Part shown: in pieces, positions 1,336 through 60,444 of the stretch
Position numbering within the stretch: position 1 is the first letter of the stretch
How the letters are laid out: the number at the start of each line of letters is the position of its first letter
NCBI RefSeq assembly: GCF_030936135.1
Contig: NC_082612.1
Span: forward strand, 19,043,475-19,107,474
Direction: 5' to 3'
DNA from: Gavia stellata
Taxonomy: Eukaryota > Chordata > Aves > Gaviiformes > Gaviidae
Length of the DNA: 64,000 nt
Translations under genes and position numbers: made by a program
Notes under the pieces: generated by a model
The model's input: only the letters and a program-made list of their open reading frames with translations
What the model was told of the DNA's origin: nothing
Database searches by the model: none

Positions 1336-2241
1336 GTCGGTTGAGATCCCCGCGGCTGCAACAGGGAGCAAAGTATTCGCAAACTAGAGCAAAGAATTTG
1401 CACATGCCCCTGGCTTTAACTCGGCCCTGCAAAGCCCTTCCCACGGCACCACGTGGGACGACGGCACCACGAGCCTTGCCGTCCCGGCACGTGGTGCTCA
1501 GCCTGGCGCGTCACCAAATGAGCCAAGGGTTTGTCCTCGTGCCACCTCCCGGCATCTCCTTTGCAGCAACTCCCCTTTAGTTTAGGCTTTGAAAAACCTG
1601 GCAATGTTCTTGCAGATTTTCTGCCTAAACATCATTAAAGAGCAGGAAACCTCTTCCGAATTCCCTGGTCCCACAGCAATGTCACCGGCCACCCAGCCGA
1701 GCTCGGTGGCCACGATGGGAGCCGGCACCGCAGATGGGCAGCGCCGTGAGAGCGCGGGCTGCAGAGCTGCGCCTCCCCCCCGGCGTGGGCCCCACTGCCC
1801 CGTAAAACCTCCCGCCACCCCAAAGCGGAGCACCCTGATAAGATAACCCCGCGGAGAGCTGCATCCCCAGCGGCCACTGGGTCGGTCTGGGGTCTGGGTC
1901 AGACTGGCATCCCAGCGGCACTGCTGCCTGCACAGGCAGGGAAAGCAGCCGGGGCTTTCCTCCAGCTCTGCTCTCGTTTTCCAAGTCCCTTAAGCAGCCC
2001 AGCACCGCATCCCCACGGGGCACGCTAACCACGCTGCGCCTCACCCTGCACCCGAAACGCGCTGGAGAAAAGAGCCGCGCTCCCAATTTCTTCCCTTACG
2101 GAGCAACGCCTGCATCCCAGCTTACAAGTCTCTCCTGCTTTCTACCAAAACTTGCAAGAAAATCTACAACCCCCGTCCCCGAACGTTGCCGTTTTCACTC
2201 CAGGCAACGCCAAAGCAACCCAAAGAAACCAAAAGCTTTAC

Positions 2242-3780: not shown

Positions 3781-4199
3781 GGGGCCACGAGGGCGGCAGC
3801 TGGGGCCTTCCTCCAACGGGGAGAGGAGGAAGGAGGGAAAAAGAAAAAAGAAAGATGCCGTCGCGCTCGGCACCCGCGTGGTCCTTGCACAGTCCTCAGC
3901 GGACAGGCACGCACGGTCCCCTGGCTGGTGATGATGGGGGGAAAAGGCAGGAGATTTTGGAGGAGGAAATAAAGGGATCTACAACAGCAGCCTGACAGCT
4001 GTTGTAGATCCCTTTATTTCCTCCTCCAAAATCTCCTGCCTTTTCCCCCCATCATCACCAGCCAGGGGACCGTGCGTGCCTGTCCGCTGAGGACTGTGCA
4101 AGGACCACGCGGGTGCCGAGCGCGACGGCATCTTTTTTTTTTTTTTCCCTCCTTCCTCCTCTCCCCCGTGGAGGAAGGCCCCAGTGCCGCCGTGGCCCC
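3781..4199. repeat. Large inverted repeat (near-perfect palindrome)
   Basis: The arm 3854-3988 (135 bases) is the exact reverse complement of 3998-4132, with a 9-base spacer at 3989-3997. With small differences the match extends outward to about 3781 and 4199. It passes through a purine-rich stretch on the left and the matching pyrimidine-rich stretch on the right, where AAAAAGAAAAAAGAAAG faces a pure T run. The protein frames on the two sides are therefore mirror copies and not genes. It is either a real fold-back duplication or an assembly artefact. Confidence 0.95.
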
Positions 4200-30227: not shown

Positions 30228-30291
30228 AAAGGAAACCTCTACACCCTACCGCTGTACCTTTAACTATTGTCCTCTGCAAGATCTGAAAAGC

Positions 30292-33200: not shown

Positions 33201-36200
33201 CTTTGCAATACAAGGCAAAAATAACATCGCATTTGACTTCAAATAAATTCTAAGATTTATTAATCTACTTGTTTGTTTATTTTTAAGGCTGAACATACTC
33301 ATCCTGAAGCCCCAAAGGAAGAGAACACAGGGTATGTAAACGAGGGTGATTTGCTGCACAGTCACAAAAACCTAAAACCAGAGTTATCAGCACCAGACGC
33401 CGAGCACAGGGATGAGCCCCAGAAGACTAGAAAACAAGGAAGAACTGGTAGCGAGCATCAAGTGAAAAACAGCTTAAGAAGCATCAATTTCCTCTCGCTG
33501 CACAATAAACCAGGTTCAGCTTCTGATAACCAGGCCAGTGATTCTGGAAGCAGCAGCAGAGAACAGTCCAGCTCTGAGCATTACCAGTTCGGGAGGCACG
33601 AGAAACACAGCGATACGGCCAACCGACATGTTCTGGGCAACGTAGAAAATCCAGCGGATGCTCTCGGTCTCGATCATGAGCATAACACGTGGAAATATAA
33701 TAAAAATACAGTTGGCCTATCTGAAAAAAACAGTGAAAGCGATGAAGAAGGAGGTCTGGAAGAGGAGGATGAGGAATGGGGTGAAGAAACTGATTACAGA
33801 GATATGAAGCACAACGGCCACCAGACAAATCAAGGTAACCAATATGAAAGACAGCACAATGAAAACAGAATGCAATCTGATGAAATCCCGAGAGATTCCA
33901 GTCAACCAATCCGGATAACCAAGAGACATGGCGAGAAGTTTGACCTAGAGGAAGAGGAGCGGGAGAACAGCCAGAAGAAGCCCCATAAAGGAGAAATCCC
34001 ACTCTCTCAAAAAACCCATAAGGAAGATCAGGATGACAAACAGGAAAGCCAAGAGAGGAAAGACAATATTCAAGTAAACTATCAGAGTGATCACAACACA
34101 GGGGAGAAAATACAAGCTACGGAGGACAGTAACGTTGATGATGATGGTCACGACAGCGGTGATGATAACTGTGAGGAAGATGCCAGCAATACCTGGGAAG
34201 AAGCAGCCTATGAGGAAGAGGAGAGAATCCAGCGTAATGACCAGGAGAGCACTAGTACTGAGCACAAAGGGGAAGGAACCGCCGAAGGTGACACTGCAGT
34301 TTGTAGAGAGAGCGAGGATTACCAAGATGTCAAGATTAAAGACCTTATTCACACTGAACAAGATGATTACGATCGAGAGCCACCTAATTCTGACAGCGAG
34401 CAACAACTGGAAACGAGTAGCTCTGTTCAGAGCATGAATTCAATGGAAAGTGAAGATAAGGTAAATTCTCTTTAAAATAAAGTTGGAATACTAGGAAAAG
34501 GGGGGGAAACCAGTCCCAAATTCCAATTCGTGATGACTGAAAGGACATTTTGGAGAAAAACAGGTGTAATTATTTATTAATATGCAGAAGTCTCGTCTCC
34601 CCTTTTATTCACTAATCATCTGGTTCTTGCTGTGTCACTTCACATTTAACATTTAGATAAATTCTTCCAGAAAGAAAGCGAGCATAACTCATGCAAGAGC
34701 TCGAGCCCCTATGGGCTGTGTAATGAAACATACAAATAAATACGGATACATGGATACAAAACCCGGAACCCAGCCCCAAACTGACTAGGAAAGCCTGTTC
34801 GCTCCTCTCGCCCAGAGATTTTAAACACTACCATACAAGAGCGAACAGCTTGGAAAGGCAGGGCTAGAGTCCCCGGAATAATTGCCATCCTCGTGGCTAG
34901 GGCACTTTCAGACAAGATGAAGGCTGGGGGCTTTGGCCCTTCAGGCAAAGGAGGGTGTTGCACCCAGATCTCCCATACCCCGCTCAACCATTAAATAACC
35001 AGTCAACTATCAGGGGTGTTCTTCAAAAGAAAGGAGTGGGTTTTCCTATGGCTGTTAAATAAGGATCAGTAATATTAAAAAAAGATAGGAGGTATCCATT
35101 TGAAAGAGGGCAGGCACCTCTGCACAGCACCAAAGAAGGGTCAGAACCGAAGAGGCGTCCTTCCCTTCTCCTCCTGCTTCGTGTGTCTGGCCTGGCAGCT
35201 CACCATGCTGCTGCTCCCAGGCGCTATTGAGAGGCAGCTCACGCTCGCTGACCTGGAGGGCCCCGGTGCAAACTAAGACCTGAAGCACCAATTCTGCCAA
35301 CCTCGAGGCACCGTGCTGCCGTATGCCAAGTAGTGCAGAACCTCCAGGTGCTCAGGCCTTACAGAGCTCCTGTTTCTCTCTCCAACCCCTTTTTTTTCCC
35401 TAAATAACAGAGCGCCTTCATGCGCTTCTCACACATTTTGCATAGCAACCTCCTCCTGCTGCAAGCAGAGCAAACTGTGCTCAGCCAGTGCTAGATTTGT
35501 ACCTGAAAAAATTTTGTCCAACTATTCATTTTCCTTCCCAAGATTTAACACAACTTCTGCTTACGTCTCTGTGACTGCACAGGTCAAGACTACAGGCGGT
35601 TCCTACGGTGAGATGGAAAGTGCAAGCAACAGGAGCGAGAAGGCTCTCCCGGGTAAGCCACAAGCAAAGCCATCATGTCACTGCTAACTCTCTGCGGCTG
35701 GGGAATGTGCTGGTCTGCATGTCTTCTCTGCCTTTGGCAGCACACAATTTCACATGACTGAACGGTGCTTGTGCATAATCCTGCGTCGCAGTTATGTTCC
35801 CAGAGAATCCCTTCTATACACCCTTGGATTAATTCATTTGTTTGTGGAAAACATTCACAGACAGTGCACAAGTTTTTGTGTCAGTTATACAAGAATGGGA
35901 ATCACCTTGCAGCGAAACCATTCTGTTTCAGAACAGTAGCTTGAATTCAGCTAGGAGTGGGACAAGTGCCAGGGCTGGATTCAGCAAGGATAGATGAGCT
36001 ACATTTCACCAAAGGAAGCTAGAAGTGAATGTCAGTCCTTATAGAAGAAAGATTTTTCTAAGAAATTTCTTTCCCCATCCAACTCAAACCTGGGACTGCT
36101 AGAAGTCTCACAAAAATCCTCATTTAAAGTTTGGCTCGCTTTATTCAATCCAAGACCCAGCTGCGTTTTAACAAACTTCCAAAAATCACTTGACTTCTTG

Positions 36201-39200
36201 CTGAATACTGGGCCGTATTTTGCTTTGACTGTCAGTACTACCTGACAGAAACACTTGCCTTCGTCCCACCCCGTCTAACAGTCCCTCCTTTTTGCTATGA
36301 TCGCTAGACCCATGTAGGAACTTCCACTGCAAAAGAGGTAAAGTGTGTCATGCGGACGAAGAAGGGAAACCCAGCTGTATTTGCCAAGATCCTGCTGCCT
36401 GCCCTTCCACCAAAGGCTATGAGCATGTAAGTATTTCGTTCAGTGCGCAGCATGGGGGAAAAGGCAACTAAAACTCTTACAAGATAACACATTCCCCTGC
36501 TATTATTCAGAATAATTCTACCCCAAAAAGCATGCACGTGGGTTTGGGTGATTCCAGTAATTGTAAATGAAGTATAAAGTACCCAAACTCACCAACTATA
36601 GCTTGAGAATAGTATGAACACATGTTGCTATGTAGAACCTGAAGCGATTAGCTTCACTTAGTCTCTCAGGGATCATAGCTTTTCCCTGTCACTAGAAGTT
36701 CTATTAATCCATTTGACATTTTACAGCACATACTGAATATTAGTACGTATCTAGGGTAATAATCCTGGACCATCTCAGAAACTATATTACGACCACACAA
36801 AAATAAATTCAATTTATTACAACTGGGTGTGTAAGTCAAGACAACTAATCCTTATGTAGGAGCATAACAACTACAATTTTCAATACTTCTGATCACATGT
36901 ATTCCCTGCGGGCATTCACAACTGCTACACCATACGTTAACGATACTTCTATTATCATAATGCCTGTACGAGTGACAAGAATTTTTCTCAAGACAGTGGT
37001 GGTGGTGGGGTTGTTTTTCATTCCTCCTCTAGGTTTGTGGTACGGATAATAAGACTTACGATGGCACATGTCAACTCTTTGGCACCAAATGTCAACTTGA
37101 AGGGACAAAAAGGGGACGCCAGCTGCACCTAGACTATATGGGCTCCTGCAAACGTAAGGCTTGTTTTTCTATGAAGAATTCACCTAGGTATAAGAGCCAG
37201 TAGCCTTTAACCACCAGCCAGCCCTAAGTTATCTGCTTTCTTCCTGTGCTCTCCCCCTTCTGCATCAATTATCTGCTCATTAAGACCTTCAACCCCTAAA
37301 CATGTCTAAAAGTCACTTTTTCTATAATTGAGGGTATTAAGCACCTGAATCCTAAAGCCATCCCTCCCGCGCTTACACCAATTTGTTGTCAACCCTGTCT
37401 TTCCCCCCGCACTGTCTTACATGCTCCCATTGCTACAGCAACTGAAGATGGTTTTCTAATACCTTGACCGGAAAACCAGTATTTAACAGCCTGTTAATAA
37501 ATTAAAATGTCAAGTCCAAAAAACCCCCCCAAAGAGCTACTTAGATGCCAAATGCAGAAGTCAGGATCTGAAAGCCAGAACTATTTCCAAGCTCTTCAAT
37601 TGCTGCATACCCTGGGAGGAAAGCGCACTCTCAGACAGAATACTCCTTTGCTGTCGAGAGCTCTGCTTTCATGCACCTGACTGATAACAGTCTCACCGCA
37701 CAACTCTGCTCAGAAGCTGCACAGATATATAAAGGTTGTGGCTTCCACAACTGGTTAAGCATGTGCAGCAAAGAAGTGTAGATTTATAACTGAACCCATT
37801 AGTTGCAGGCCCAGTTTTATGTATTAACAGCTCCATCAATTTTAAGCTTAACTGGAAGTTTGCTAGTGAGAATCAAATCTACCTCGGCTCAGAAATGCTC
37901 GAACGGGGACCTAACAGATCACCTGTTAACAAAAGCTTTCCTGTTTGGCACAGACATCCCCCATTGCACTGATTATGAAGTGGATCAGTTCCCCCTCCGG
38001 ATGCGAGACTGGCTCAAAAACATCCTTATGCAATATTATGAACGTGATCTGGATACTTCTGGATTTCTAACCAAAAGGCAAAGGATTAAGGTCAGCCATC
38101 CTTTTCAAATAAGACCAATGCAGTTACATTGTTAGAGCTGGACTAACCATGTGAGAAACAAGTGATTTACATCTTATGAGTTCTCCCATTTCCTACGGGC
38201 ATTGCCTTTCTGCTTAAGGCAATTTAGACTCAATTAGATTCACAAGTTGCAAAATACATCTACCTGTCCCCTCGCACTCATTTAAGCCGAGACACATTTC
38301 TGCTACGAATGTTCCTTTTGTCCAAGCAAATGCAAGCCAAGTGTATTACTTTGAAGTCAGTGTCTACAGAGAAGAGGCAGAAAAGTCAGGATTAGTGCAC
38401 ACCAATAAAAACATCGTTCACTTGAGAAAACACGAAACAGCTTCTGTTCAGGGAAGTGCTTCGCGACAAACCCCTGGGAAAGATCAACTAATACGTAGTT
38501 AAGGATGACCCAATTCACACAGTCAATGCCATTTTCTAAAGGACTTGAGGAAACTAAGCAGCCGTAAGATGGAAGGTCTGGGTATGAATAACTAATTAAA
38601 AGACAGAATAAGAGGGAACAGCCAGCCAAGAGCTCACCTGTGGAGTCCCACGAGCTGAAAGGACTCGTGCTATTCAGCTTCTGTTAAGTGACCTGGAAGA
38701 GGAAGGTAGGGGAAAAAGTCTGCTGACAACGCATAGGTATGCAAAGGAAGGAAAGGTCTTGGACTCAGCATGAAGAAAACTGCTCAAGGACCTCCTGAGA
38801 CTGAGGGACTGGGCAGTCCCACAGCAGGATTCGAGACAGAATTACAACAGAGAGTTTAGGGGACCCCTGCCTTGGACGACCAAAAGTAGCTTCTCTTCTG
38901 TTCTTGAGACAGACCTTGTACTCGGCCATCAATACAAAAGTACCCGAATATGGACTCAGCAGTTAAGGGTATCGTTTGCACTTTTTAATCTAGCCACACA
39001 CACTGTCCATCTACACCATGCTATTCAAGGGCTATAAAATTACACAAGTCCAATGCTCAGTTTTAAGAGAAGAAAGCTGCTCTCTACCATCCAGTAGACC
39101 TGCAGCATCACACTACATGGGTTTAAAATGGAGTAAGCATCTATTACCATTGGGCCTTTTTTTTTAGAGAAGGATTTATGTCAAGTGAACTGGTGACAAT

Positions 39201-42200
39201 AGTTTGGTTTTGAAGATACAGATGCTATAAGCGCCTAAAAAGCCGTAACTGTTAGAAAATAGTTAAAAAGTTAAACCAAGACCTGAGCTGCTCTAACTCT
39301 GGAGTAGGAGTGCATGCAGTAGGTCACAGCAGGTTTATACAAAATATGCTTGAGCAACAGCAAAGACTACTTACACAGTTACCAAGAGGGACACTGACCT
39401 ACACCTAACATCTCATACTAAATAGTACAGATTAGATGATTCCTGAGATGGCTTATTTCATGCCAAAAGCTGAGTTGCTTGCCTCAGGACAAGACCAGCA
39501 AATGTGATAAAATTGGTTTCACCTCCCACCAACCTGAGGCTACTGCCCAGCTTAGCCGAGTCTGACAGTTAGGCCACAGGAATTTCACTTCCTTTTTAGT
39601 TACTACCAAAGTTGACATGGACAGCAACAAAAAAAAAAAATCAGCTGGACTACTTGAGGCAAGCTTTTCATGCTGTGTATGGCGACAAACACTAAAACCC
39701 ATATTTCCCCAGTGGTATTTTATCAAGTTTCATTTCTCCAAACCACCTCCTCACTGGATAGTTCTCTTCAGGACATCCCTAAACAAAAAAAAAGTCAATT
39801 TCTCTGTTGTGTTCAGGTCAAAAAAATCTACCAGAATGACAAGCGCCTCGTGGCTGGCGACCACGCAGTTGAGCTGCTCCTGCACGACTTTGAGAAAAAT
39901 TATCACATGTATGTGTATCCCGTGCACTGGCAGTTTCATCAGCTTGATCAGCACCCTGTTGACAGGTAAAAAAAATCTTCATGGGTTCAGTTCTGATTTG
40001 CTGTTTAAGCTCAGGCTGTTTTACTTTTCTAAACCACTCGAAGGGTTCTCTCCATACTATCCCCCTCTTTCCAAGGAGGCATTCGTCTCTAACACAGAAC
40101 TTCTCTCATCGTTTTGCTGGAGCCACATCTTAGGTCAGAACCTGCTATCCTTGCGCCCTTCATAATCATCACGTATTGCACCTTAAGCTCTGCAGTGTCT
40201 TAATAGCTCCTAATGCCCTGATTCTGGAAGAAAACAAGGCTCAGGAGATCCAGTTATTACTGAAGCTAAGAGCAACATGCTAAGCACAAAGGGCAGAGGC
40301 CTGTCAGCAATAATTCACTAGCGAGTTGCAAACCCACAGTTTTCAACTAACACTACAGAAGTCTCTGTTTAAGGAGCAGATACAGTAAGACAGCACCAGT
40401 GTCACGGTTCAGAGGAAGCCCCCCAACTTCTGAGGACGTGACTCAGATTCCAGGCTTTTGGTCATGACACTCGGCGGTGGGATCCATGTTTCAAGGCTGC
40501 AGGCCCTCGATACCTCGCGCCGATCACACCTATGTCTTAAAACATAGCTAAGCACCTTAGCAAGCTTCATCTCCTGAACATTAATGGCGAAACTCCACAA
40601 CCAATGAGTTGTGAACGAGCCACAGTAATACTTGTTCTAGAAAAAAATGTTAGTGAAAAAATAGCTGTTAAAACATTTAGTTCATCAGGCATTATGCATC
40701 ATCATAACGACCTGGGACAGATTCGCTACAGAAGCACAACAACAGAATCCACCGCAGCATCTCTGTCAAAGCCACTGTTGTCACCTTCTAGCACCTTAGA
40801 TAGTCTCTGATGATCCTGATGATTTATTAATGAAATGCAGCTCTAAAGACCTGCTCTTTCTTTCAGATTATTAACGCACTCGGAGCTCGCGCCTTTGAGA
40901 GCCTCCCTTGTTCCCATGGAACACTGCATAACTCGTTTCTTCCAAGAGTGCGATGGAGACGAAGACAAACTCATTGCTTTGAAGGAATGGTGCCACTGCT
41001 TTGGGATTAAGGAAGGTAAGCCCAAAAGAACAGGCAGAGGTACAGGACAAAATGTTCCTAGCAAGACTAGGCACGTTCTCAGACCACAACACATGGGAAA
41101 GAAATTGTAGCCAGAAGCTCATGGCTACTGTGCGCAGAGGCAAACGGAACAGTAACGACAAGACTGCAAAAGGTGCAAGGTTCTAAATTGTTTTATAAAG
41201 ATAGGAAAAAGTCATCTTTTCCATGAGAAAAATTTTGGGACGTAGTTTGTACTAAATATCAAATCATTCCTGTATTGTGTCTGAACCTGTATGTTCTGCA
41301 CATCTGTCTCTCAAGAAACATTCTATTTTATCCTTCAGCGCCAAAGGAAAGGCAAAGCGAGCTTGTACTTTTAAATCCGTGGTCAAAGCATATTGATTGA
41401 AAATGCATTTAAATATCTCAAGCCAAGTGGGGAAAACAACCGAGATCTCTCACATGATGAAGTAACTGTGCTCACCTCTAGATTACTACATACAACACAA
41501 ATGCTGTCATCACGCTGTAGCTGCAAGCCAAACCGCCTGTTTTACCTCATCTGTCAGATGCAACACACGCTCAGATGGTGCCCACCAGACTGCATGCATC
41601 CAGAGGCATGAGAGGCAGGGACAGTTTCTGAATCCTAAACAGGCTAGATGTACATTTGCTTCAGCTCAATCCACATCGAGACTTCTCTAGGACAGTGAAA
41701 AGCCAGGTGCTACTGTGCTGGTGATGTCTCTAGAATTAGGCAGGAGCTGAACAGAAGCTGTCGTGATAGCAGTTGGAGATTTACAAGGCTAACATTCAAC
41801 CCAAGACATTTTTTCTCACTCTTTCTACCTTCTTCTGATCTAGCCCTCAGTGACAGCTGAACAATACTGCCAGTCATCAAGCCAAGGTAGCAGTAGCGCA
41901 GGTTAATCCTAGAACAGTTGTGACAGAAGGCGTTTGGCTAAATGTGCAGACTGAAGAAACATGTTCAAAATCCTACTAGCAACCCCCTAATTTTAAGGGG
42001 AGGCTGATTCTGGTCGGAGGTCAGACATGCAGAGCCTTCACTCTTCCCAGAATTTTTCCAGCTCTTCCAATGACTATTTACCAGCCACAAACCACGCGTG
42101 GAAATAAGCTGCGAGGAGTTATCATAATACACATGTACTGCTGCCAATGATTGTTCATCCAAAGAGGGGTTTAGGGTCGGTCATTTGTGAAGAGGTGGGT

Positions 42201-46727: not shown

Positions 46728-46739
46728 CTATATATATAG
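46728..46739 (+). promoter_or_regulatory. TATA box of the small SCPP-like gene
   Basis: CTATATATATAG lies about 30 bases before the start of a proposed noncoding exon 1 (about 46760-46824) that ends at AAAG/GTAATA. TATA-driven, tissue-specific promoters with a short noncoding first exon are usual in SCPP genes. Confidence 0.6.
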
Positions 46740-46916
46740 ACACCAGCCATTCACACAACACTATCACCACAGCCAGCTGACTTCGTCTGATCGACTGACC
46801 AGCTGTTCAACATGCAATCCAAAGGTAATACAGCTGCTTTAATGTTACCTAGACTAAATTTCATAACAAAAAAATCACTTAGGGTATGGCTGTAGACTGT
46901 ATGACTGTAAATGTGA

Positions 46917-47117
46917 AGGAAAAAAACTTTTTCCACGGTGAGAGTGCTCAAGCACTGGCATAGGTTGCCCAGGGAGGCTGTGGATCCTCCATCCTGGGAG
47001 ATGCTCAAAACCTGGCTGGACAGTCCAACTTGCTCCAGCTGACGCTGTTTGAGCACGTCTGGGGAATGGACTAAATCTCCAGAGGTCCCTGCCAACCTCA
47101 ACCATTCTGTGAGTCTG
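46917..47117 (+). mobile_element. Old CR1 3' end (F)
   Basis: It resembles the CR1 3' part: GGTTGCCCAGGGAGGCTGTG, GAGATGCTCAAAACCTGGCT, CCAACCTCAACCATTCTGTG. It diverges clearly from copies A to E, so it belongs to a different, older subfamily. It lies in the first intron of the small SCPP-like gene. Confidence 0.85.
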
Positions 47118-47558
47118 AAAAAAGAGCATGTGACAAGAACCACTCAGAAATACCAATGCTCTGCTGCTATGCCTGTTGCTTCAAACAAAAAAATTGCATA
47201 AGGCTTCCATAAGCAGTGTTAGGAAAGAGTAAAATTAGGGCGAGGTAAAATCAAAAGGCAAAAATAATGAGAAGTAAAACGCTGACAGTATCTCAAAGCA
47301 CAGACAAGGCAGCCAGAAGCAGAGCAAGCTTTATTCTGTAATGACTTATCCTGACCACGTACGAGAGCAACTCAGATACAGAGATGACAGTTAAGGTCAC
47401 ACCACAAGCCATACTCAACTAGGAACAGCTCCTGCTGTCTGATTTCCCTTTCTCTCTACACGGCGGAGAGCCATACTCTCCCCAGGTCTTTCCTTTTGCC
47501 AAAACCAGGCCATCATAACTCTTTGTTTTCAATCTGCTTCACAGGACTCTCTCTCAAA

Positions 47559-48309
47559 ATGCAATTCCTGTTGCTTTCTTGTGTTCTGAGCATGGTTCTT
47601 GCTGTTGCGAACGCAGTAAGTACTGAAGAAGAAACTAAACAGGCATCCAATGCGGGAAATGTTAACATTGTAAACGGGAAATCCCATGCTTTTAAACATA
47701 GCAGCCTTAAAAATACTCCTGTTTGGAACAGGCCTAAACTTATGTTATTACCATGCTAGATTCTCAACTTATTATTGAGCCCTCCTTAAACTTCAAAGTA
47801 AAAAATAAATTGTAAGCACTACTGACAAGCTCATACCCAGCCCAACAACGGGGTCTGTATTTTCTCCATTAGCTATTTCAGCTGACAGCATTACAGACAT
47901 TGAAGATAAGTAAGTTCCCTTTGCAGAATTATCTTTGCTTTCTAACAGGAAAAGAAAAAAATCAAAACTGAAGTACTTGATTTTTTTTTTTTTAAAGAAA
48001 TACAAGCACCTTACTCTAAAAGAACACTCCTTTTTCTACAGGATAGTAGTAGTAGTAGCAGCAGCAGCAGCAGCGAGAGCTCCGGTTCGGACAGCACGGA
48101 GGACGTAAGTCTTCTCTTTGTAAATCAACAGCATCTCACTAGTTCTAACATTCATTTTTAACTGGGGATTTTGGTACTGAACAAGAACATACTGATACGA
48201 GATGACTTTCTTTTCACAGCGACCTCCTAACTTCATAAAAATTATTCGTCACTTCTTTCAATTCCCGGGCAGGAGGCCTGCTCGCGAGGCTTATCAAGCT
48301 CAAGTCTGA
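47559..48309 (+). CDS. Small SCPP-like secreted protein (unnamed, 69 residues)
   Basis: Proposed exons: about 46760-46824 (noncoding), 47545-47615 (14 nt of UTR, then signal peptide MQFLLLSCVLSMVLAVANA, donor GTAAGT), 48042-48104 (21 residues: D, ten Ser, then ESSGSDSTED; donor GTAAGT), 48220-48310 (29 residues beginning RPPNFIKIIRHFFQF and containing GRR; stop TGA at 48307) and 49468 to about 49705 (3' UTR with AATAAA). Both coding introns are phase 0. The signal peptide fits cleavage ANA/D exactly at the exon junction. The Ser tract holds S-x-E sites for the FAM20C secretory kinase. This is SCPP architecture, and the size resembles statherin. The tail is basic and amphipathic, unlike the acidic front. 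I do not recognise a named orthologue. An antimicrobial-peptide precursor is the main alternative. The splice model is inferred from signals only. Confidence 0.7.
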
Positions 48310-49467
48310 GGTAACTGACCTGCCCGGTAGCACCCACAATGCCGCAGAAGCTCTGGCTGGCCAGGGAGCACGCCACCGGGGATATTGAGAGAGCAGCTTC
48401 TGAATGACAAGCTGCCATAGAAGGGAGCTGGGGAGGGACTGCAATTTACCTGTGAAGCTCGAGGAGAGTAATCCACTTTGCTTTCTAATTAGCAGACATG
48501 CGTTCTATGGGGTTACTCATTCTTTTTAATACAAAAAACCCTCTATTTCTTCAGCTTAAAAGAGATTACAAACTTTCTCAAAACTCTGCTGCTGTTCCTT
48601 AGATATTCTTTGAGTATTTTTCTGGATATCCCAATCCCTGGGGATAGATGATCTCATATTTAAAGTAGTAGTTTAGGATAAGTTAGAGATACAAGTAGGG
48701 CTGAAAAATAACACCTTCCAACACATCTGACTTGCATTAATATACAAGCTAACATCACCCATATAAAGAAGCTGACCATTTTACAGAAGATTGGACAAAT
48801 GAAAAGAAATGCCACTACATTTGCTTTCTTATAAACTTTCAATATTGTAATTATGCAATAAATTTCAGGATGGAAGTAAGCATCAAAACCTGATTAGTAA
48901 GGTACTGAGAGGCACATAAAGTAATTGCATTCTGTACAGCCTACCGTCTAAGATGACACGCTCCAACTGGAAACTGTCTAACCAGAAAGCTTTCCTGGAA
49001 ATGTGACAATCAAAAAACATGCAGCCAAGTCCACTTAGCCTGTCAAAAAAAGGCTTTAACACAAGACTAGTGAGGACTGAAAAGATTCTTTACAGAAATT
49101 TTGCTTTCCAGGAATAACACAGTGGCTACAGAAAGAGTGCAGTTTTTCTATCTCATTGAGTATGGTACTTTCAAAATTGAAATTATTTCCTCCTGTTTTC
49201 ATCTTCAGTACCATACCTTATGTTAAACACTTTGTACGTAAACAGTAACATTCAAGAAAAATAACATGGTATTTTGATGCACCACAGCATAGGCACTGTT
49301 GTTCTCAGCCATGATGAGCTGCACATTCACCTCCCATGAACTTAAGCGGAACATGCTCCTGTGGTCATGCTTTCAAAACCCAACTACACTGCTAGGGGCC
49401 TGCTCTGCATAATTAAAGTAATTAACTGCCATCAATTCTAACCTGCCATTCTCTTCTTACTCTGCAG

Positions 49468-49705
49468 ATACCTGGAAAACTATGGATGTCTCCCACAAAA
49501 CACTGCTGCTTCTCGATAATCATCAACCTCCTACAGCTCCTTCCCATCTTTTGTCTCACCAGTGCACTAGAAACTGAGGATAAGTAACAACCAAGTCCTG
49601 TTTCACACACCCACCTCTGAAACCGGAGTGGGTTATAATGCACAACTCTCTCAAACCTTGTGTGATTACTTGTTAAGCTTGAATAAACGCTGTGCATCAA
49701 ATTTC
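49468..49705 (+). other. 3' UTR exon of the small SCPP-like gene
   Basis: A strong acceptor (pyrimidine-rich TTCTCTTCTTACTCTGCAG-like tract; AG at 49466-49467) opens an interval ending about 20 bases after AATAAA (49682-49687). The preceding exon ends TGAG/GTAACT, placing the stop codon in the penultimate exon, as in many SCPP genes. Confidence 0.55.
49682..49687 (+). terminator. Polyadenylation signal, small SCPP-like gene
   Basis: AATAAA, in the context TTGAATAAACGCTGTGCATC, closes the proposed terminal exon. Confidence 0.55.
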
Positions 49706-50904
49706 TTAGTTGTCTTCATCTTTTAAGAAAAAAAATATAGCCAAGTCATTTCAGTGACCCCGTTTCCAAAGACCAGGAGTAGAAAGGGAAAGGAACTCCT
49801 GAAGCTGGCTATGCCTTTTGTCCACTCCGAGTTTCACAGGTTCTCTCAGGTCTTGATCCGGCCCTATCAGATATTACGTGGTCTCCATACTATGCTGAGG
49901 ACAGATTAATCAAAATCGTTTCTGCCTAAGCAACCAGTAGATCTTACCTACGATTTGAAGAAAGACTTTTGCGTAAACCAAGTCCATAGAAGCTTCTATT
50001 GCAGCAGAAAGCACTGATCCTGTTTTAGTATGACCGCAGAAGAAATCAAATGTGCAGGAAGAGGTGAGCAAGGACTGAAAGAAAAATTAGTAACTCTCAG
50101 CATTACTTTTTTCTTTGAAAGGAACATACTAATAACACTACAAGATTCCCAGGGTTCCCCATATAAACACACAACTCCTCCAAATCTCATTAGCTAATTG
50201 GGAGGAAGGGGTGGTGTTCAAAAGGAAAAAGCCCTAAAATCATTCATTAGTTAAGCAGGATGCGGCCAACTGTCTCAACAATGCATGAACACGTCACAGT
50301 ACTGTTACAGAAGGTAATTCCAGACCGTGACATTTACCACCACCCTACTTCAACACAGGGCTCAAAATTCATTAAGACCCCCCTCCCCGGGTCTCAGCCA
50401 GAACTTTTAGCTGTTACTGCCACCAACTCTTGACACTATTACACAATTAACAGCAACTACCCCTTGATTAAAAACACAGGGAGAAACATCAGCAACTGCA
50501 GTGCAGCTCTCATTAGCAGCATAAATGCCACAGAAGGCCCACAACAGCCTCCTGACTGCAAGTTACTCACATTACCTAAACTGTAAAAAACCACCACAAT
50601 TTACAAGATCATACTTCACGGCTGCTCTTTCCAATGATCCTGTTTTACGGCACAGCCTCCCCAACAGCTGTACTGCCATAAGGAGCGGGAAGAGAGGAAC
50701 CTCGAAATCCAGCTCCCAAAATCTGTCAAGTTACATCCTGCAACAGTTGTCCTTTTAGACAGAAGCACTAACAGACATTCAGATGTGAATACCAGCCATA
50801 CTGTAAACTAGAAAGCAATTAAATGTGAAAACTAATCTCTCAAAATAGAAAAAAAATCACTGAGCAGACATGTTAAGTGAAATGACTCAGAAAAGAAATT
50901 TCAC
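49706..50904. other. Intergenic gap before the NUDT9 3' end
   Basis: About 1.2 kb separates two convergent genes. No exon or repeat was recognised. Confidence 0.5.
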
Positions 50905-50910
50905 TTTATT
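50905..50910 (-). terminator. Candidate polyadenylation signal of NUDT9
   Basis: TTTATT on the plus strand is AATAAA on the minus strand, about 430 bases after the NUDT9 stop codon. It would define a short 3' UTR. Confidence 0.5.
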
Positions 50911-51335
50911 ATGTAGCACTTAGGTCATTATTCAGGTTATAACCCTACAAGTCTCACATCCCTTAAGGATTCACACTCCTGGAAAGAAATCGGTGCAGAA
51001 ACACAGACCTAAAGTGAACAGCCTCTGAACTACAACCAGTCAGAATCGCAGTGTTGTCATGCAAATCTGCGGATATTATTAAACGGCTGCAAATAATGAA
51101 GACAAGAAAGCAAAACAAGGTAACAGTCCCACATTCATCTCATTTCACATTAGCTGAGAAATCAAAGGCATCCATCTCAAGTCTCTGGAAAAGCCTCTAT
51201 TTATCACTGCCAAGTGTTTTTGCCAGCCAAATTTCACGGAATTTTTGCTGAATTTCCACTGAAAAGGACAATGTCATCTGTTTCAAAGCTGGAAAAAGTA
51301 TTCTCCCCTCGGTGTCCATCAGTTCCTCATTTACA

Positions 51336-54300
51336 TCACTCACGGCACTCAGGACCAGGATCCTCACTCCAGTGGGCTCCCCGTTTCTCACTCACAAGCT
51401 TAATGAAGTAGCTATGACTTGCGTACAGCTTGAGCTTCTCACTGATGTCAACCCACTTCACTACTCCAGCGTCATCACCCGCTTCCAGAGGCAAATTATC
51501 CATTGTCTCACCTGTTCACAAAATAAGAATTAGGACATGCTATCGCATCTTCTTTCCTGCCTTTGCTTCTCACATCTGATCAGTTCTGCCCTTCCACGTG
51601 GCTCCTCCACAGGCAGCAACATTCAACAGATTCTCAGAGAGAAACCAATTAAGTTGCTCACTGATTCTGTGCCAGGAACCTTTTTATACTTGCACTATTT
51701 TAAGGCAAACCTCAGTGGCAGAGGTGATGTTAACTCCTTGTCACCACTCCTCGGGTACCATCAGCAGCATGACAAGTTACTAGAAATCATTATGACAACA
51801 CGTACTCACTGCTGCAAGTTTAGCCAGTCCCGCTGCCTTGATTTTTGTTCATTTGGCTAACACTTGACAGCTTCCTTTCTCAGGTACTATTCTACAGGAC
51901 AAACCGAATTCTGAAACTTGCATATGCTTATGGAAAACCAGAATAATTAAAATTTTACTGAAGTCCCCAAAAATCAAAAATAGTACTTAAGGAAGGATGC
52001 AGAAAGGCTTCTCCAAAGTTTCTTACTCTGTTTCCAGAAAGAGTCCCAGGACTTCACAGACAACAACCAAAGAAATGTTTTTAGAAGTATTACAAAATGT
52101 GTTAGAAACAAAGACCAAAGGAACAGTATCTTCACTGTTTGTGGGGGCTGATAAATCAAGGACCAGTAACATGTGAAACTCCACCACTGGTATCTACCAC
52201 CCAAAACACAGCGGAAATGTCACTATTTGAAGTCTCTGACTTGAGGAAGTCAGAAACACCTAACTAGATTGATTTATCTTAAAAGCTGAGAGATGAGAAT
52301 CCAAGATAACAGATCTGAGAACTAGCAGTGTATGCCCATTCCTACTGATTCATAGAAGTAAAATAAGGTCCAACAATTACTCTGGCAGAGTAACTGAGAT
52401 AAAAGGTCTCAGAGCAATTACAATGCCAAAGCAATAAATGCAGTGAAAATCTGCCAGCAGCCAGAGGCAACGGCTCCTGAAGCACACGCCAGCTACTAAA
52501 GGAAAAGTAAGAAAAGAAACAGACTATCCTTCCACCCCAGACTCATTAAAAAGGGAAATTAAACCAACTCAAGATAAATACAGTGACAAGATGTCCAGTG
52601 GTCAATCTCCATATGAAGGCACATGGTCCACAGCTTAGAACTAGCTACCAAATTAATAAATCATTTTCAGGCAAAGTCCGAACCTTCCTTATTTCAAGAC
52701 TGACAGAAACCAAATGGGAACAACAACTACCTGTCACAGCTGAACATCTTAGGAGACAAGAGACCCTCACACCCATTGATTTTAGTCTAATATTTTACAC
52801 CTGACTTGCATGCCCCCCCTTTTCATTGCCAATCTCAGCCCAACATACATCCCAATTTCAAACCAACACACAGTAAAAAGGCAACTAAGAGCACACGTGG
52901 AGACACCCACCGGTTTCGTCATGATAGTTCACCGCCTCCGTCTCCATCCAGGCATTATCAGTGTTACGAGGGTCATCCACATATCCTCTGTACACCTAAG
53001 GCCCCGAACAAACCGAAACAAGCTCAGAGTCCCAACAAACAAGGTGGAATCAAGAAGAAGATTCTTTTCTTTCCCTCCAATACATTTGCGCTTACAGAGT
53101 TTTTCACCAGTCCCTTCCACTTCCTACACCGTGACAAGCCAAGCGTCACAGTTTATTTTCATTTCAGCTACACTTTTTCAAGTTCCATACAGCCACGAGT
53201 TATATGCACAGCTCAAGAGGCTATCACAAGGGGGACAGAGCTCACCACAAAGTGTTCCTGGCTGAACAGCTTGTGGAGTTGCTTCTCCAGTTCTGCTTTC
53301 TCCTCAGGTGATTTTTGCAAGGAGTTCAAGGCTTCCTCCTCAAATTCCCGCTTCAGGGTAGCACTAATCTTCTCCCCTGGGTCCACCATCCCCTTAGAGG
53401 GGAGAAAGAAAAAAGGTGACTATCCCTCAGATTCCACTTGTTTTTACTCCCCTGTGGCTCTTAGTATGTATGTTACATCCATGCGCATCACACTCTGGAC
53501 AGCGGAGGAACTTTACACTTAGTTGTAAAGAGCAAGCACGCGCATCCTTCAAAACCTGCAAGGGATTACATCATGCCTGCACTAAGCAAAATACATGGTC
53601 AGAATTAAATACGAATACCGCCTTGCAATGCAGAAACAGCAGCAGGCATATCAGCTTGGGCAGAGCTAGTTTAAGGAGCATTTCTCCTCACCTCTGCAAT
53701 GCGAGGTCATTCAAAAAGCATGCTTATGTCATGCGCATGCCAGTTATCACCTCGTGGCCTTACCAGCAGGGAAACGTCTACTGTCTCCGGAGCTTTGCTC
53801 TTACCCCTGGAATGGCCCACTCCCCACAGTCTCTCCTCTTGATAGCTACGAACTGCAAGATGTTTTTGCCAGTAACTGGATGAGCAACTTTATTGCCACT
53901 TCCATCCCTCTTCCACCTGCAGCAAACGACAAAACAAGAACATGCTTTGCTGCTGCTTGACAGGAGGGCCTGGGAAAGGAACAGCAAGGCGCCCGTGCTG
54001 TCACCTGCGTGGGGGCAAAGTGGAGGAAGAATAGTCACGGGAAGGGGGGGAACAGATGGATGCCGCCCAGCAGATCGCAACCAAGAGCAAAACATTGAGT
54101 TTTTCCACACACCTCTACCAACCATGTTTTCCTCAGCCGAAAGGGCAGAAACCACCCAAGAGACCCATTTCAGTAGCCACGCTGATAGCAGCAGCTCCTT
54201 TGAGAGCTACGCCCAGCAAGTCCTATCAGCTGCAGTGCTCACCGAGCTGCACTTGTGCCTATCCCTAACGAGAGAATGAGTATGCCTTCTGCTAGAACAG

Positions 54301-57300
54301 AACATACATGCAGGCTGCAACACCTCCAAACCATCACCCAGCACAAGGCCACAAACACCCACCATTGCCTTCAGTAAAGAATTAAGAACTACTAACAGTT
54401 AAAGCAAAAAGCTATCTAAACAAAGACAAAATAAAAACAGCATTTCTTTTACTTTCAAGGAAACAACTCAGTAGCATTGGCAGCCTTCTGAAAAGGGGGA
54501 GAAGTAAAATGCATTAGGATGATTTTCACACTGGTTCTATCTTTAGTACGGCACTTCCTAGCTTGCACCTTTGTTAGCTACACAATCTTTTCTGAACTAT
54601 TTCTTTATGTAAAATAGTTAACACGTACACACAGATCCCACTGGCAAAAGCGACATTAAAACAGAGCATACGCTGACCAAAAAAAGAGCCTAACCCCACC
54701 TCCTCCTACAATATACTAAGCCAAGTTAGTATTTCTTACAGAGTAAAAGCAGGCACATTGCTTTTTGTTTGCAGTTGAGTCATTATGACAGAAAAACCTA
54801 TCCCCGCAATTTAACGTGCCTCATCTAAGGCCTTCTGGCATATTACATATACAGTATCGAAGTATCACGTAATCCTTTGTTTTTACATTCGTTACTGAGG
54901 ATTATTTGTATAATGTATTTCTATTGAATTACACTTCCTGGGTTATTTTTTTTTAAATTGACTTCCTCAGCATTTCAGAAGCGACTTCTTGTCAGTAGCA
55001 GTGAGTCCTTACTCTTTTCCAGAGGCAAAGACTAAAATATTATGAAATCCGTGTTCCACATGTCTATATAATCACTCCATTCAGATACCCGTATCTGAAT
55101 GGGCTTACACATAGAGGAACACACACAAAAGGCCCACAGAAAGTAATAGCCTGTCCAGAGATGCACAGAATAAGCAAAATGCATAGGGTTTTTTCCTCTA
55201 CTGGAAGGCACCTTTCAGTCACCTGTCCCTTACCTAGTTACAACAGGATCAGCAGCATGGTTTGGTCCCCAGCGCCCTAACAGTCCTCTGCCTGCGAGGC
55301 CAGTCCTTCCCACCGGATTTCTGAAATAAGCAGCACAGTACATGAAACATATTTACTTCCCCACATTGAAAATATGCTCCAAGTAGTCTAAAAAAGCAGC
55401 TTTAAAGAAGCTTAATTAACAACAAAAGAAGGGATAACAACGTACATGCAGTGCCACCATATGCTTTAAAGAGAAAGAGAGACAAAGCATGGTCTTCTCC
55501 TTCATCAACCTCTTTGTGTTTAATAGTACAGGGAAAGGAAATACAGAAAATGGCTTTGTCATTTCCCAAATCTTGTGCCCTGAGACACTCCTGATCAAGC
55601 ATCAGCCTCATTGTGCACACAACCTTGTCTGAAAATGGAATCTAGTTTCCAAGACTACAGATGCAAAGAGCATTCAATTACGTACAAACGGCAGAAAGAA
55701 AAGAAATTATTTTTAGGTGAGATTACCCATCTGTGCTATGCCAGGACTTGACAGTGGAAGGAAACACTCTTCCGCTCTGCCATAGCACACAAGTGGTACA
55801 AAAGCTTCAGAGTCCAACACCTGGTCAAACTGGGGAAACAATTAATTCAACAGACCCTACCATTAACAGTGTCAGACCTCCTCCGCCACCAGCATCACCA
55901 CAACCCTCTGTTGTGGTAGTACTGGCTAACCTTTTAGTGCCTCTCTGCCACAACCTTCTTCCAGAAAGAACTCTCTGGCCTTGAGGTATCATTTTTCCTG
56001 TCTCTAGGGGAGGCTATCTTGATTTTGTTCTAGCAGGTACAGGTCTGTCAGTTTTGATACATGGTAAGAGCTCTGAGATGACATGACTGAAATTAATGTG
56101 CAAACAAAAAAACCACTCACCGGGGCCTCCCATTTTCAACCACATATAAGCCATTCAGACTCTTCCTCTCCACTTCTCCATCTCTCTCATTGAATTTGGG
56201 AGAAAAACCTTTATCGCTAGGTGGAAAAGAACAATTTAATAGAGATAAGTTATAAAACGCAAAACACCCCTCTGCCCCACAAAAGCTTGAAGGCCAGCCA
56301 CCAGATCGGCAACACCCATTTGACCAATGAGCAGCTTTTACCAGAACTTAAGTTGCAGGCCCTCCCTTTTCTACAGGAGGCTATAAAGTCTCAACCTTTA
56401 CTGACAACAGTCTCCCGGCATTTAGTTCTGCAGACCTAAGTGCGCCCCTCTAAATTATTTAACATTGCGTCTCTCTAGATTTTCATTTAGACAAAGTGTT
56501 TCAAAGGCATTCTTGTTAAAGTTAGAGAACATAGAAGGACGTTATCCACTGATAAAATTAAAAAAGATGTTGCTAATTAAAAAAATTGAGCAGAAATTTA
56601 TGAGATATGATTTATCAGAGCTGCAAGCTAATAATCACCCATTTTCAACATTAGCTTAATACCAGTTTTCAGAGGTGCACATAGGAGACTGGCATCTGTC
56701 TACAAAAGTGTATTTCCTTTCCCAAAGCAATTCCTCTCAAGCCATCACAGGTTTCAAACTATTGATTAGCTTCTTCCACACATAATTCATTTGGGAATTT
56801 ACATTAATACCTAAAAAAACACCCTGCATTTTCAAGTACTACAACACCTACTAAAAGATTACCTGACACTTTCCCAACTCTGCCTTGGCACAACATCAGC
56901 AGCCCTACAGACTTTGAGGAGTAGCATGCCTTGCAATCAGCAGAATATTAAACCAAACTAAGAGCAAACAGAAGCACATGTTCACACAGCAATGGGAAAC
57001 AAGGCAAGTAAGGCTGAAACCTCCAATGCCATTATCTTCTCATCTTTCTACACAGATGTGCAGACACATGAATCACCATTTCACACTGTCACAAGTTAGA
57101 CTCGATGCATGCATCTAACCTTCTCGCCAAAAAGCATACAGCTTTCCCCGAGAGGAGAATATATTCACAGAATCAATAAAAATGAATACACATATTTACA
57201 AAAAAAGAATTACAGTCACGCATTCAACCTGTCACATTTCCTGAGTCAGAGCGCTCAACTCAATTCTACTTTAATTCTCTTCTCATCTTGCATTCAGGCC

Positions 57301-59588
57301 ATGAACAAACAAGCAAGTATACTAGGAAAATGTTCTCCCAAATTCTTAAGGAGAATTAGGAGATTTTTCACTTAGCTCACAACACTGAGAAGCAGCACTA
57401 CACAGCATCAACAGCTGTCCGTTATTCCAATTAACACTACTCTTACCTCAATCCCCCAGCTCAGTAAAATCATGTGTCAAAGACCTTCACAGCTAACCCA
57501 AACCATTCAGTTCTCTAACCACCATTTTTCTAGGTCTTGACTTTCACACACCCCTGTAGAATCATGTGTCACTTAAGCTGATGATCTTATTAACTCAGCT
57601 GATCCTGCTTCCATGTTCACAGGAGAAAAGAGCCACAATCTCCACTCACTTAATTTGGGGATCTGCCCAATTGGGTCCAGCCAAAACAGACATTGCAGTG
57701 TACTCCACAGGATTATAATCTTTCCACTCAATCTGCCAGCCCACTTTATCTTCAGGAACTTGGCTACGCTCAACATGTGATCCAGGATACGGGGAGGTGA
57801 GAGCTTTGCTGTGGTAGAACTTAACATGGTAACTGTTGAACATGTTAACAGGATGAAAACGGGACCAACAGTTTCCAGATGAGTTACTGAAAGAAAAAAA
57901 GAGAAAAAAGCACCTCATTCATTAGGCTTTAACCCTGTTACTTAATCCCAGATCTGCACAGTACATTACAGCAAGCGGAACAGACACACATGAAGATTTC
58001 ATAGCATGAGTGAGAAGCTGAGAACTCAAACTGCCATTCCGGACTGTGTGGAACGCTGACCAGTTATTAACCATACACAAGGAAGACCTCAAAGATACTT
58101 ACCATAAATGCAGCAGGAAGGCCTGCTTGAGCATTACATCTCCCTGTGGGCATTTCATCGACAAGCCAACCCAGCCTTACAAGAGTCCTGCTCTCACATC
58201 CAGTGGTAGACCAGGCAAGAGCAAGAACAGACTATCCAAAAGCCTGAGCAACACAGTTCTGAGTTACTGTGACCACCAAAATATCATTTTGTGCAACACC
58301 GAGTAGGGTAACGCATACCTTGTTTTTCAATTTCAAAGCAGGCTAGAGCTATCAAACTAGTTAAGTTAGAAGAAAAAAAAATACTTGAGACATCTAATGA
58401 TTTTACTTTGCATGGGTTTTCCGGAGCTGAAAGACCAGTCAACAATAAAATATTTCAGAGCAGATTGGGTTACAGTGCCTGATCACCAGCTCCTAAAAAC
58501 TCTACTGAGATGCAACACACAAAGCAGCCTTCCTGTCCTCAATTTTTTTTAAATTATTACAAAAATAAGGAGAATTACTCTAGACAAGAGGCTCAAAGCT
58601 CAGCAAGGGCCTAATAACCTACAAGAGTACTCTAAAAACAAGATATTTATTTAAAAGTTCTTAGGGTAAAGCTTTTTTCTAAAACAAAAAAGAATCACTT
58701 CCAGCATATAAGGAAATGTAACTCCTCTGCAAAAATGCATCCAGGTTTTAACAACACCTGAGCAAGGTGATGATGGGGCCAATGAGTTTCAGATGAAAAA
58801 GAAAAAAACAACTCATACATTAAGTATTAACCCTGCTATTTGAACCTAGATGTGAATTATAACTAGCAGAACAGGCCAGGCTTTTTCAAAAACAGCAGTC
58901 CCAGTTCTAAACCTCACTCATGCTATGAAATCTTCAGGTGCATCTAGGAGAGGAAGTTCTGCTTCACGCTGACGTTAAGAATGCATTGCTCGCAGTTACA
59001 GCGTGCGTGTGCTGCTGTGTTCACTGCTGAGAGGGTGTTCTCAAGAGCGCAATTCAGCTCACAAACCGCTCGAGGCTCATAAAATCTTTAACAGAGATGG
59101 GGAAAAGAGCATACTTCATAGGGTGCCAACCTCCACCTGCAGGTCAATGTTACATCACTTTTGTTTTTTTTAATAACTACATCAGTTTAAAAGCCAGCCT
59201 GATTTTTGTTTCCACCACACCCAAAAGGGACACCCTCAGCTACGCAGCACACCCCGTGCCAAGCTCCCCCTCAGCTGGCAGGGGACGGCACGGCAGCCCT
59301 GAGACCTCGGCCCAGCCATGAGGTAGCTGCTCCCCTGAGAACAGGGCACCACCTCAAGGCGACCAAACGCCCGCCGAGCCACCCAGGCGGGCAGGCTCCG
59401 AGACTGGGGAGCGCCGGCCCAGCCCGAGCCCCGACCAGCTTCGGTCCACGGTACCTGAGGGGCGGGCGGCGCTGGAGAACACAGCGGGCAGGCTGGCTGG
59501 ATAGCACGACAGCGAAAGAAAACACGGCGACCGCTCGAGCGAAACCGGGCACCGCCGCCGCACGCAGGGAGCCGGCGAGGAGGAGCAT
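51336..59588 (-). CDS. NUDT9: NUDT9, ADP-ribose pyrophosphatase (Nudix), complete coding sequence
   Basis: Hydrolyses ADP-ribose to AMP and ribose 5-phosphate; the mammalian enzyme is mainly mitochondrial. Exons on the minus strand: 59588-59455, 57886-57650, 56216-56121, 55320-55234, 53916-53805, 53392-53246, 52995-52911, 51511-51336. The sum is 1074 nt, 357 residues (human 350), with consistent phases. The start [20 protein letters not shown] is rich in Ala, Leu and Arg, as in a mitochondrial presequence. Strong family blocks: [77 protein letters not shown], the Nudix box from GMVDPGEK to REFEEEAL, and [20 protein letters not shown]. The C-terminus ([10 protein letters not shown]) differs from the human end. 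The catalytic REF-x-EE core is intact. The gene is head-to-head with HSD17B11. Confidence 0.98.
55077..55102. repeat. Perfect 12-base inverted repeat
   Basis: CCATTCAGATAC, two bases, then its exact reverse complement GTATCTGAATGG. It lies in the NUDT9 intron between exons 4 and 5 and could form a cruciform or be a protein-binding site. Confidence 0.9.
57855..58010. repeat. Diverged duplication, copy 1 (spans the NUDT9 exon 2 acceptor)
   Basis: A stretch around the exon 2 acceptor (GGGACCAACAGTTTCCAGAT, AAAGAGAAAAAAGC, CATTAGGCTTTAACCCTG) recurs in diverged form at 58770-58940. The order of the matching blocks is kept. Confidence 0.6.
58770..58940. repeat. Diverged duplication, copy 2 (NUDT9 intron 1)
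   Basis: Blocks GGGGCCAATGAGTTTCAGAT, AAAGAAAAAAACAACTCATA, TTAACCCTGCTATTTGAACC and CATGCTATGAAATCTTCAGG match copy 1 in order. It appears to be an ancient local duplication of an exon 2 acceptor region. Confidence 0.6.
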
Positions 59589-60444
59589 CGACGCCGCCAC
59601 CGACCTCACCTCGGCGGGAGCAATCCCCGCCTACAGCTCCACAGGGCTGGGCCCAGGCCTGAGATGCGGGCGCGGGCCCAGGCCTGAGATGCGGGCGCGG
59701 GCCCAGACCTGAGATGCGGGCGCTGGACCGGCTGGGCGAGGGAGCCCGCTCCGAGCTACCGCCCTCTCCCCGAGCCACGGGCACAGAGCCGCCGGGGCCC
59801 CCCAAACACCGTCCGCTACGGGCCGAGCCGGGCCGGGCCACCGCGCTACCGCTACCGCCCCACAGCCGCCGCTTGCCGCCCCGCCAAGGACCCTCTTTAG
59901 AAGCTCACCTCTCATTGGGCGAAGCGCCACCAATCGCCAGCGCCTCCGGCCCACAGGCTTTTCCCCGCCCAGGGACACGCCTGTCGCTCTCTGATTGGTT
60001 GATACGCCCCTGCGAGGTGGGGCCGGGCGCGCGGCCGGTCCCACCGTTAGCGGCCACCGCTCCTCGCGCCCCGATGGCGGCCCGGCCCCGGCGATCGCGG
60101 TCGCCGCGCTTCACGGAGCCCCGCGGGGCGAGGGGATCCTGGGGCCCGGCCGGGGCGGGCCGGGCGGGGCGCGGGGAGGGCCGCGGCCAGGGGGTGGCTC
60201 CTACCGGGGTAGAGGCCCGTGACTGACAGGACGAGCGGGGCGCGCTCCGCCGGGCCGCGGGCGCCCCCTGGCGGCGGTAGAGAGCAGCGCCCCCCGGCAG
60301 CCCCACCGCGCCCCGGCGAGAGCGGCGCTGAGCGGCATCAGCGCCCACAGCGGCCCGCCCCGCTCCCGCCCCGGGCCCGCTCTGCTGCGTCAGACGTAGC
60401 AGGGCCCAGCTCGGTTCGGCAATCAAAGGCCCTTCAGCAGAACA
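59589..60444. promoter_or_regulatory. GC-rich bidirectional promoter of NUDT9 and HSD17B11
   Basis: The two start codons face away from each other across 856 bases of CpG-rich DNA. CCAAT-type boxes are present in both orientations (CATTGGGC near 59916, CCAATC near 59930, GATTGGTTG near 59993), and TGCGTCAGACG lies near 60386. No TATA box was seen. This is typical of a shared housekeeping CpG-island promoter, and the same head-to-head pair exists in human. Confidence 0.8.
59649..59723. repeat. 25-base tandem repeat, three copies
   Basis: Units at 59649-59673, 59674-59698 and 59699-59723, each containing CCTGAGATGCGGGCGC. The third unit differs by one base (G to A). It lies just upstream of the NUDT9 start codon, probably in its 5' UTR or core promoter. 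Confidence 0.95.

Follow-up and report, generated by a model that had tools for sequence, protein, structure and literature searches.

Gene model of the candidate

Does the interval between SPARCL1 and NUDT9 of Gavia stellata hold a small gene of the SCPP family, whose members are proteins of teeth, bone, and saliva? The earlier note had proposed a compact gene there, and we examined this proposal in the window, that is, the whole 64-kb stretch of DNA that was analysed. The candidate gene (46729-49702, + strand) consists of a TATATA sequence, five exons with canonical GT/AG sites, and an AATAAA sequence, in that order; the proposed splice junctions, TATA box, and AATAAA are all present in the sequence at the places given for them. 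The TATA box (46729..46738, +) has its TATATA at 46729, 28 nt upstream of the assumed start of exon 1. Exon 1 (46757..46824, +, 5' end assumed) ends in the donor AAG/GTAATA with a score of 6.9, which is equalled by about 3% of GT on the + strand. Exon 2 (47545..47615, +; acceptor 10.1, donor 6.2) carries a 14-nt leader, an ATG at 47559, and the signal peptide MQFLLLSCVLSMVLAVANA. Exon 3 (48042..48104, +; acceptor 9.5, donor 6.8), both ends of which are in phase 0, encodes the acidic polyserine segment DSSSSSSSSSSESSGSDSTED, and exon 4 (48220..48310, +; acceptor 6.8, donor 7.8) encodes the basic segment RPPNFIKIIRHFFQFPGRRPAREAYQAQV and the stop codon TGA at 48307-48309. Exon 5 (49468..49702, +, 3' end assumed) is a 3' UTR exon with AATAAA at 49682, and its acceptor score of 12.0 belongs to the top 0.3% of AG on the + strand. 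The polyserine/acidic exon, the short basic exon ending in a stop, and the separate 3' UTR exon were thereby confirmed.

The four introns run from GTAATA after 46824 to ACAG before 47545, from GTAAGT after 47615 to ACAG before 48042, from GTAAGT after 48104 to ACAG before 48220, and from GTAACT after 48310 to GCAG before 49468. Scored with a consensus matrix, their splice sites range from moderate to strong (6.2-7.8 for the donors and 6.8-12.0 for the acceptors). The stop codon ends 1 nt upstream of the last junction; a stop so near the last junction is not a trigger of nonsense-mediated decay, and hence such decay is not expected for the predicted transcript.

The description of exon 1 as noncoding and of the introns as phase 0 holds in part. 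The exon and its donor are present, and introns 2 and 3, which interrupt the coding sequence, are both in phase 0. Exon 1, however, contains a single ATG (46812), which the earlier note had missed. It shares the reading frame of the main ATG, and translation from it would yield a precursor of 78 aa (MQSKGLSLK plus the 69 residues described below). Exon 1 may therefore be coding, and if this ATG is used, intron 1 is in phase 1. An alternative, weaker acceptor at 47509 (8.4 versus 10.1) would extend the leader to 50 nt. Intron 1 also includes a repeat at 46940-47015, which we take to be CR1-like, with 78-82% identity to stretches at 13.8, 18.0, 25.6, and 28.1 kb.

Locus and neighbouring genes

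The candidate gene is located between SPARCL1 and NUDT9, on the same strand (+) as SPARCL1 and on its non-SIBLING side. SPARCL1 (30281..41000, +, end approximate), with a signal exon at 30292 and a calcium-binding domain exon near 40.9 kb, was identified by PF10591 (1.1e-16) and by SPARC-family chains in the PDB (5e-24). NUDT9 (50900..59630, -, limits approximate and taken from reading frames) lies tail-to-tail with the candidate gene and was identified by the match of its exon at 52909-52995 to PDB 1q33 (2.6e-15). These SPARC-domain and NUDT9 matches agree with the place originally assigned to the gene. A short-chain dehydrogenase gene begins on the + strand at 60.4 kb and is HSD17B11/13 by position (Pfam E 5e-5, below the cut-off). 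Three tandem copies of a 25-bp GC-rich sequence occupy 59649-59723, between the start regions of NUDT9 and HSD17B.

Four SIBLING signal exons are found to the left of SPARCL1, all on the - strand. IBSP (Pfam BSP_II, 2.6e-35), which has an RGD motif, is on the opposite side of SPARCL1 from the candidate gene; the names DMP1, MEPE, and SPP1 are presumed from gene order. The nearest SIBLING signal exon (1282..1355, -; MRAALLVLLLWAVACAHP) is DMP1 by position, a label inferred from the chicken gene order (PMC2542379). About 29 kb separate this exon from the SPARCL1 signal exon, and 10.9 kb are given for the distance between the 5' UTRs of DMP1 and SPARCL1 in chicken (PMC2542379). The gap from 1.4 to 30 kb is without any SCPP-type exon 2 under the fitted exon-2 definition described below, as expected if DSPP has been lost. 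Within this gap, a near-perfect inverted repeat at 3840-4146 comprises two 149-nt arms, 9 nt apart and 99% complementary, which we regard as either a palindrome of recent origin or a fold-back produced in assembly. To the left of the window, positions 560-1900 of L009 are purine-rich and of low complexity, with several frames open over several hundred codons.

The predicted protein

The spliced frame joins the three coding segments of exons 2, 3, and 4 into 69 residues, and both other frames of the spliced coding sequence contain stops; the reported length and 14-nt leader were thus reproduced on spliced translation. By the -3/-1 rule, applied by eye, the signal peptide may be cleaved after residue 17 (AVA/NA) or residue 19 (ANA/D). 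The serine run of exon 3 is encoded by an AGY repeat, which could be a microsatellite. Eight of the 14 serines of exon 3 fit S-x-E or hierarchical S-x-pS as predicted sites at the level of motif match, and these motifs are the Fam20C consensus (PMC10454625). The exon 4 segment has a calculated pI of 11.8.

The Pfam search assigned the candidate protein to no known family, and the PDB search gave no match. Four Pfam families appeared at E <= 10, the best of which, New_glue (E 0.009, below the cut-off), spans the signal peptide and the serine run. Statherin (PF03875) is absent from the families at E <= 10, a list from which the scan filters can lose weak matches. Because there is no Statherin profile match, we class the candidate as a protein that may work like statherin and not as a member of the Statherin family. 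A protein search of the same genome, in which five candidates were scored, returned the three exons of the candidate itself and a weak match on C12 (E 6.5, one internal stop), which was taken as a chance match rather than a relative.

Comparison with chance

A strict scan for the whole architecture was carried out on both strands of the 64 kb. With thresholds just under the candidate scores, and set, as in all scans, after the candidate had been seen, it found one protein in the real DNA, the candidate, and a complete model in 0 of 2000 dinucleotide shuffles, 77 of which contained at least one signal exon. At relaxed thresholds (4/4), complete models appeared in 29 of 400 shuffles, and in 5 of the 400 with a TATA box. 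The same thresholds applied to 164 kb of real DNA gave the candidate on the + strand and 20 models on the - strand, of which those listed use the IBSP signal exon; one of ten sampled 10-kb loci (L015) gave 16 models, all without TATA. At 2/2, many chance models were obtained, some of which join the signal exon of the candidate to other exons.

Exon 2 was also treated separately, using a definition (leader of 8-25 nt, coding part of 48-66 nt, phase 0, signal peptide, acceptor >= 3, donor >= 5) that was fitted to the local genes and chosen after their scores had been seen. So defined, six exons were detected on both strands of the 164 kb, namely, the candidate exon and those of SPARCL1 and the four SIBLINGs; samples from other parts of this genome, 100 kb in total, contained none. 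In 300 shuffles of the 164 kb there were 16 matches, distributed over 15 shuffles (0.05 per shuffle). The leader of 14 nt in the candidate is comparable to those of SPARCL1 (11), DMP1 (20), IBSP (11), MEPE (12), and SPP1 (13), and its coding part is 57 nt versus 54-60 nt in these five neighbours. The SCPP-like architecture claimed at the outset is borne out by this agreement of exon 2 with the local SPARCL1/SIBLING exons in leader, coding length, and phase. A pattern derived from exon 3 (at least 14 of S, D, E, G, and T) was found in exon 3 only in the 164 kb and was absent from all ten sampled loci, but we give it no weight because it was tailored to the candidate and misses the SIBLING genes.

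The CpG content provides an independent sign for the candidate gene. The observed/expected ratio is 0.81 in the coding exons versus 0.24 in the introns (Poisson P 0.0006). When the exon triple was slid through 29-58 kb, this CpG value was reached in 24 of 2108 placements (9 of 595 when GC-matched), and most of the 1-kb bins concerned lie inside the SPARCL1 and NUDT9 gene bodies. In the whole window, the value was reached in 481 of 4738 placements (GC-matched, 148 of 1652), a high rate explained by the greater CpG richness elsewhere in the window. The ratio is 0 in SPARCL1 exon 2 and 0.23 in one stretch taken as NUDT9, indicating that CpG retention is not universal among exons. Chance is a poor explanation of the candidate model, and the features of the sequence make it very probable that the candidate is a real gene.

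Probable membership in the SCPP family

SCPPs have their signal peptide in exon 2, whose 3' end, together with the exons that follow, encodes the mature protein (PMC4373244). The candidate likewise has its signal peptide in exon 2, the last two residues of which belong to the mature part or not depending on the cleavage site. It lies in the cluster around SPARCL1. Exon 1 is noncoding in SCPP genes; in the candidate it holds the in-frame ATG and may be coding. According to Kawasaki and Weiss, the introns between SCPP coding exons are reportedly in phase 0, as are introns 2 and 3 here, and the Fam20C-type S-x-E sites, at the motif level, stand near the N-terminus. Similarity to a named SCPP was not detected in Pfam or the PDB. 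Similarity is a poor guide to SCPP genes, whose detection calls for manual inspection of AG sites together with RNA-seq (PMC13367325), so missing similarity was not used as a defining test.

The mature peptide shows no clear P/Q richness: the 29-aa basic exon has four Pro and three Gln, and the serine exon has none of either. In gar and bichir, the P/Q-rich and the acidic genes reportedly flank sparcl1 on opposite sides. A single ancestral SCPP cluster around sparcl1 with both P/Q-rich and acidic genes has been described (PMC13367325). In sauropsids, the P/Q-rich and acidic clusters are on two different chromosomes (PMC4373244), and therefore a P/Q-class gene beside SPARCL1 would need explaining.

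Among the titles and abstract openings listed from the open literature on SCPPs, statherin, and birds, none describes such a gene, and a synteny legend giving NUDT9 and SPARCL1 as flanking genes mentions none between them (PMC8144736). An unnamed LOC gene may stand at this place in existing annotations. Judged from its sequence, the candidate looks like a previously unreported member of the known SCPP family, and a real gene of this family, TATA-driven and with five exons and a statherin/histatin-like product, is in our view probable.

Alternative explanations

The candidate could be a real gene of another kind, a charge-balanced precursor of an antimicrobial peptide or hormone in which the acidic serine exon supplies the propiece and the basic exon (RPPNFIKIIRHFFQFPGRR...) the active peptide, the adjacency to SPARCL1 being incidental. 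Opposite charges of the two halves are typical of antimicrobial precursors, and the calculated charges here are about -5 for the acidic half and about +5 for the basic half; the exon 4 segment is amphipathic, with a helical moment of up to 0.8, and a GRR amidation-like motif can be seen by eye. No dibasic processing site, however, was seen between the halves, which meet at ED/RPP, and GRR is directly followed by Pro, which is unfavourable for convertases. Because the exon-2 layout, the phase-0 introns, and the position all fit SCPPs, we regard such a precursor as unlikely. The histatins, which are SCPP members, show that SCPPs can also be antimicrobial, so that the SCPP and antimicrobial readings overlap.

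Losses among the enamel and dentin SCPP genes of birds raise the alternative of a recently silenced SCPP gene, whose exons look intact while its expression has been lost as in the avian enamel genes: AMTN is inactivated in duck (PMC4373244), and AMEL, AMBN, ENAM, and DSPP are lost or inactivated in chicken (PMC2542379). In the candidate, by contrast, the splice sites, frame, TATA box, and poly(A) signal are all intact and the coding exons have kept their CpG, whereas the AMTN pseudogene of duck is hardly recognisable (PMC4373244); silencing thus seems improbable. A chance assembly of splice-like motifs around a serine-coding microsatellite and a hydrophobic frame, with no gene at all, draws on the frequency of such motifs (per kb of the + strand, 0.8-1.6 donors and 0.2-3.7 acceptors score equally high) and on the models that arise at relaxed thresholds in shuffles and in one of the ten sampled loci. 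The absence of any complete model from the strictly scanned shuffles, the single exon that the exon-2 definition adds to five neighbouring genes, and the CpG retention all speak against it, and we give it the smallest chance of the three.

Comparison with known systems and proposed mechanism

The SCPP gene that we favour would have been derived from duplications of SPARCL1, its presumed ancestor. SPARCL1 shares with it the neighbourhood, the strand, and a signal peptide in exon 2 with phase 0, but encodes a large protein that includes a SPARC calcium-binding domain. The SIBLINGs (SPP1, MEPE, IBSP, and DMP1) share the locus, the exon-2 layout, and the phase-0 end of exon 2; they differ in lying on the other side of SPARCL1 and on the opposite strand and in encoding far longer proteins, and their genes have the stop in the last exon, unlike the candidate. 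The ASARM of MEPE/OC-116, compared here by description, is also an acidic serine-rich stretch with many phosphorylation sites, and in MEPE its phosphorylated, acidic Ser/Asp-rich form binds hydroxyapatite and inhibits mineralisation (PMC8144736). However, the ASARM is the C-terminus of a long protein, whereas the stretch in the candidate stands at the head of a very small protein, with a basic exon after it.

In its acidic head and basic tail, the candidate resembles statherin and histatin more closely than the long, acidic SCPPs of bone. Statherin (STATH) is a small secreted SCPP phosphopeptide of mammalian saliva with S-x-E sites (PMC10454625); its mature part starts with DSS, as in one cleavage choice of the candidate, and its acidic head is followed by basic residues (PMC5830524). 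It differs in that the human gene is at 4q13.3 and not between SPARCL1 and NUDT9 (PMC10454625), in having two phosphoserines versus eight potential sites, and in its long Tyr/Pro/Gln tail, which is absent from the candidate, as is a profile match. The histatins are likewise small cationic secreted peptides, but they are His-rich and without a polyserine head (histatin 3, PMC5830524). The phosphorylated head of statherin, DR9, is an inhibitor of hydroxyapatite growth, and a DR9-RR14 fusion of the acidic head with a basic histatin part inhibits less than DR9 itself (IC50 3.80 versus 2.82 uM; PMC5830524). The layout of this synthetic fusion is that of the candidate, where it occurs within one peptide.

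As an acidic, phosphoserine-type head with a basic part is the statherin layout, the candidate may work like statherin or histatin. The Golgi kinase Fam20C would phosphorylate the serine-rich head, and a peptide of roughly 50 residues, probably disordered, would be secreted. Its phosphorylated head would bind Ca2+ and calcium phosphate (or carbonate) and hold off unwanted precipitation, and its cationic tail would anchor the peptide to membranes, microbes, or acidic matrix in the manner of the salivary peptides statherin and histatin. The site of action might be the oral or oviduct epithelium or bone, which is a guess, as are the eggshell, oral, and bone roles suggested in the earlier note. 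Among the mechanisms considered, a statherin-like role appears the likeliest, although we hold it tentatively, at somewhat less than an even chance.

Implications

The loss of teeth in birds has been linked to inactivation of the enamel SCPP genes (PMC4373244), and SIBLINGs have been co-opted for the eggshell (PMC8144736). It is conceivable, though on balance doubtful, that toothless birds keep a functional, hitherto undescribed statherin-like SCPP beside SPARCL1 and away from the SIBLINGs, combining a hyperphosphorylated mineral-binding head and a cationic antimicrobial tail in one natural peptide for epithelial or eggshell calcium control. If so, this small surviving SCPP would reveal a further part of the mineral-protein cluster kept for non-tooth use. 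It would be a candidate for the control of calcium in the avian mucosa or eggshell, and would provide an example of statherin-type peptides arising outside mammals.
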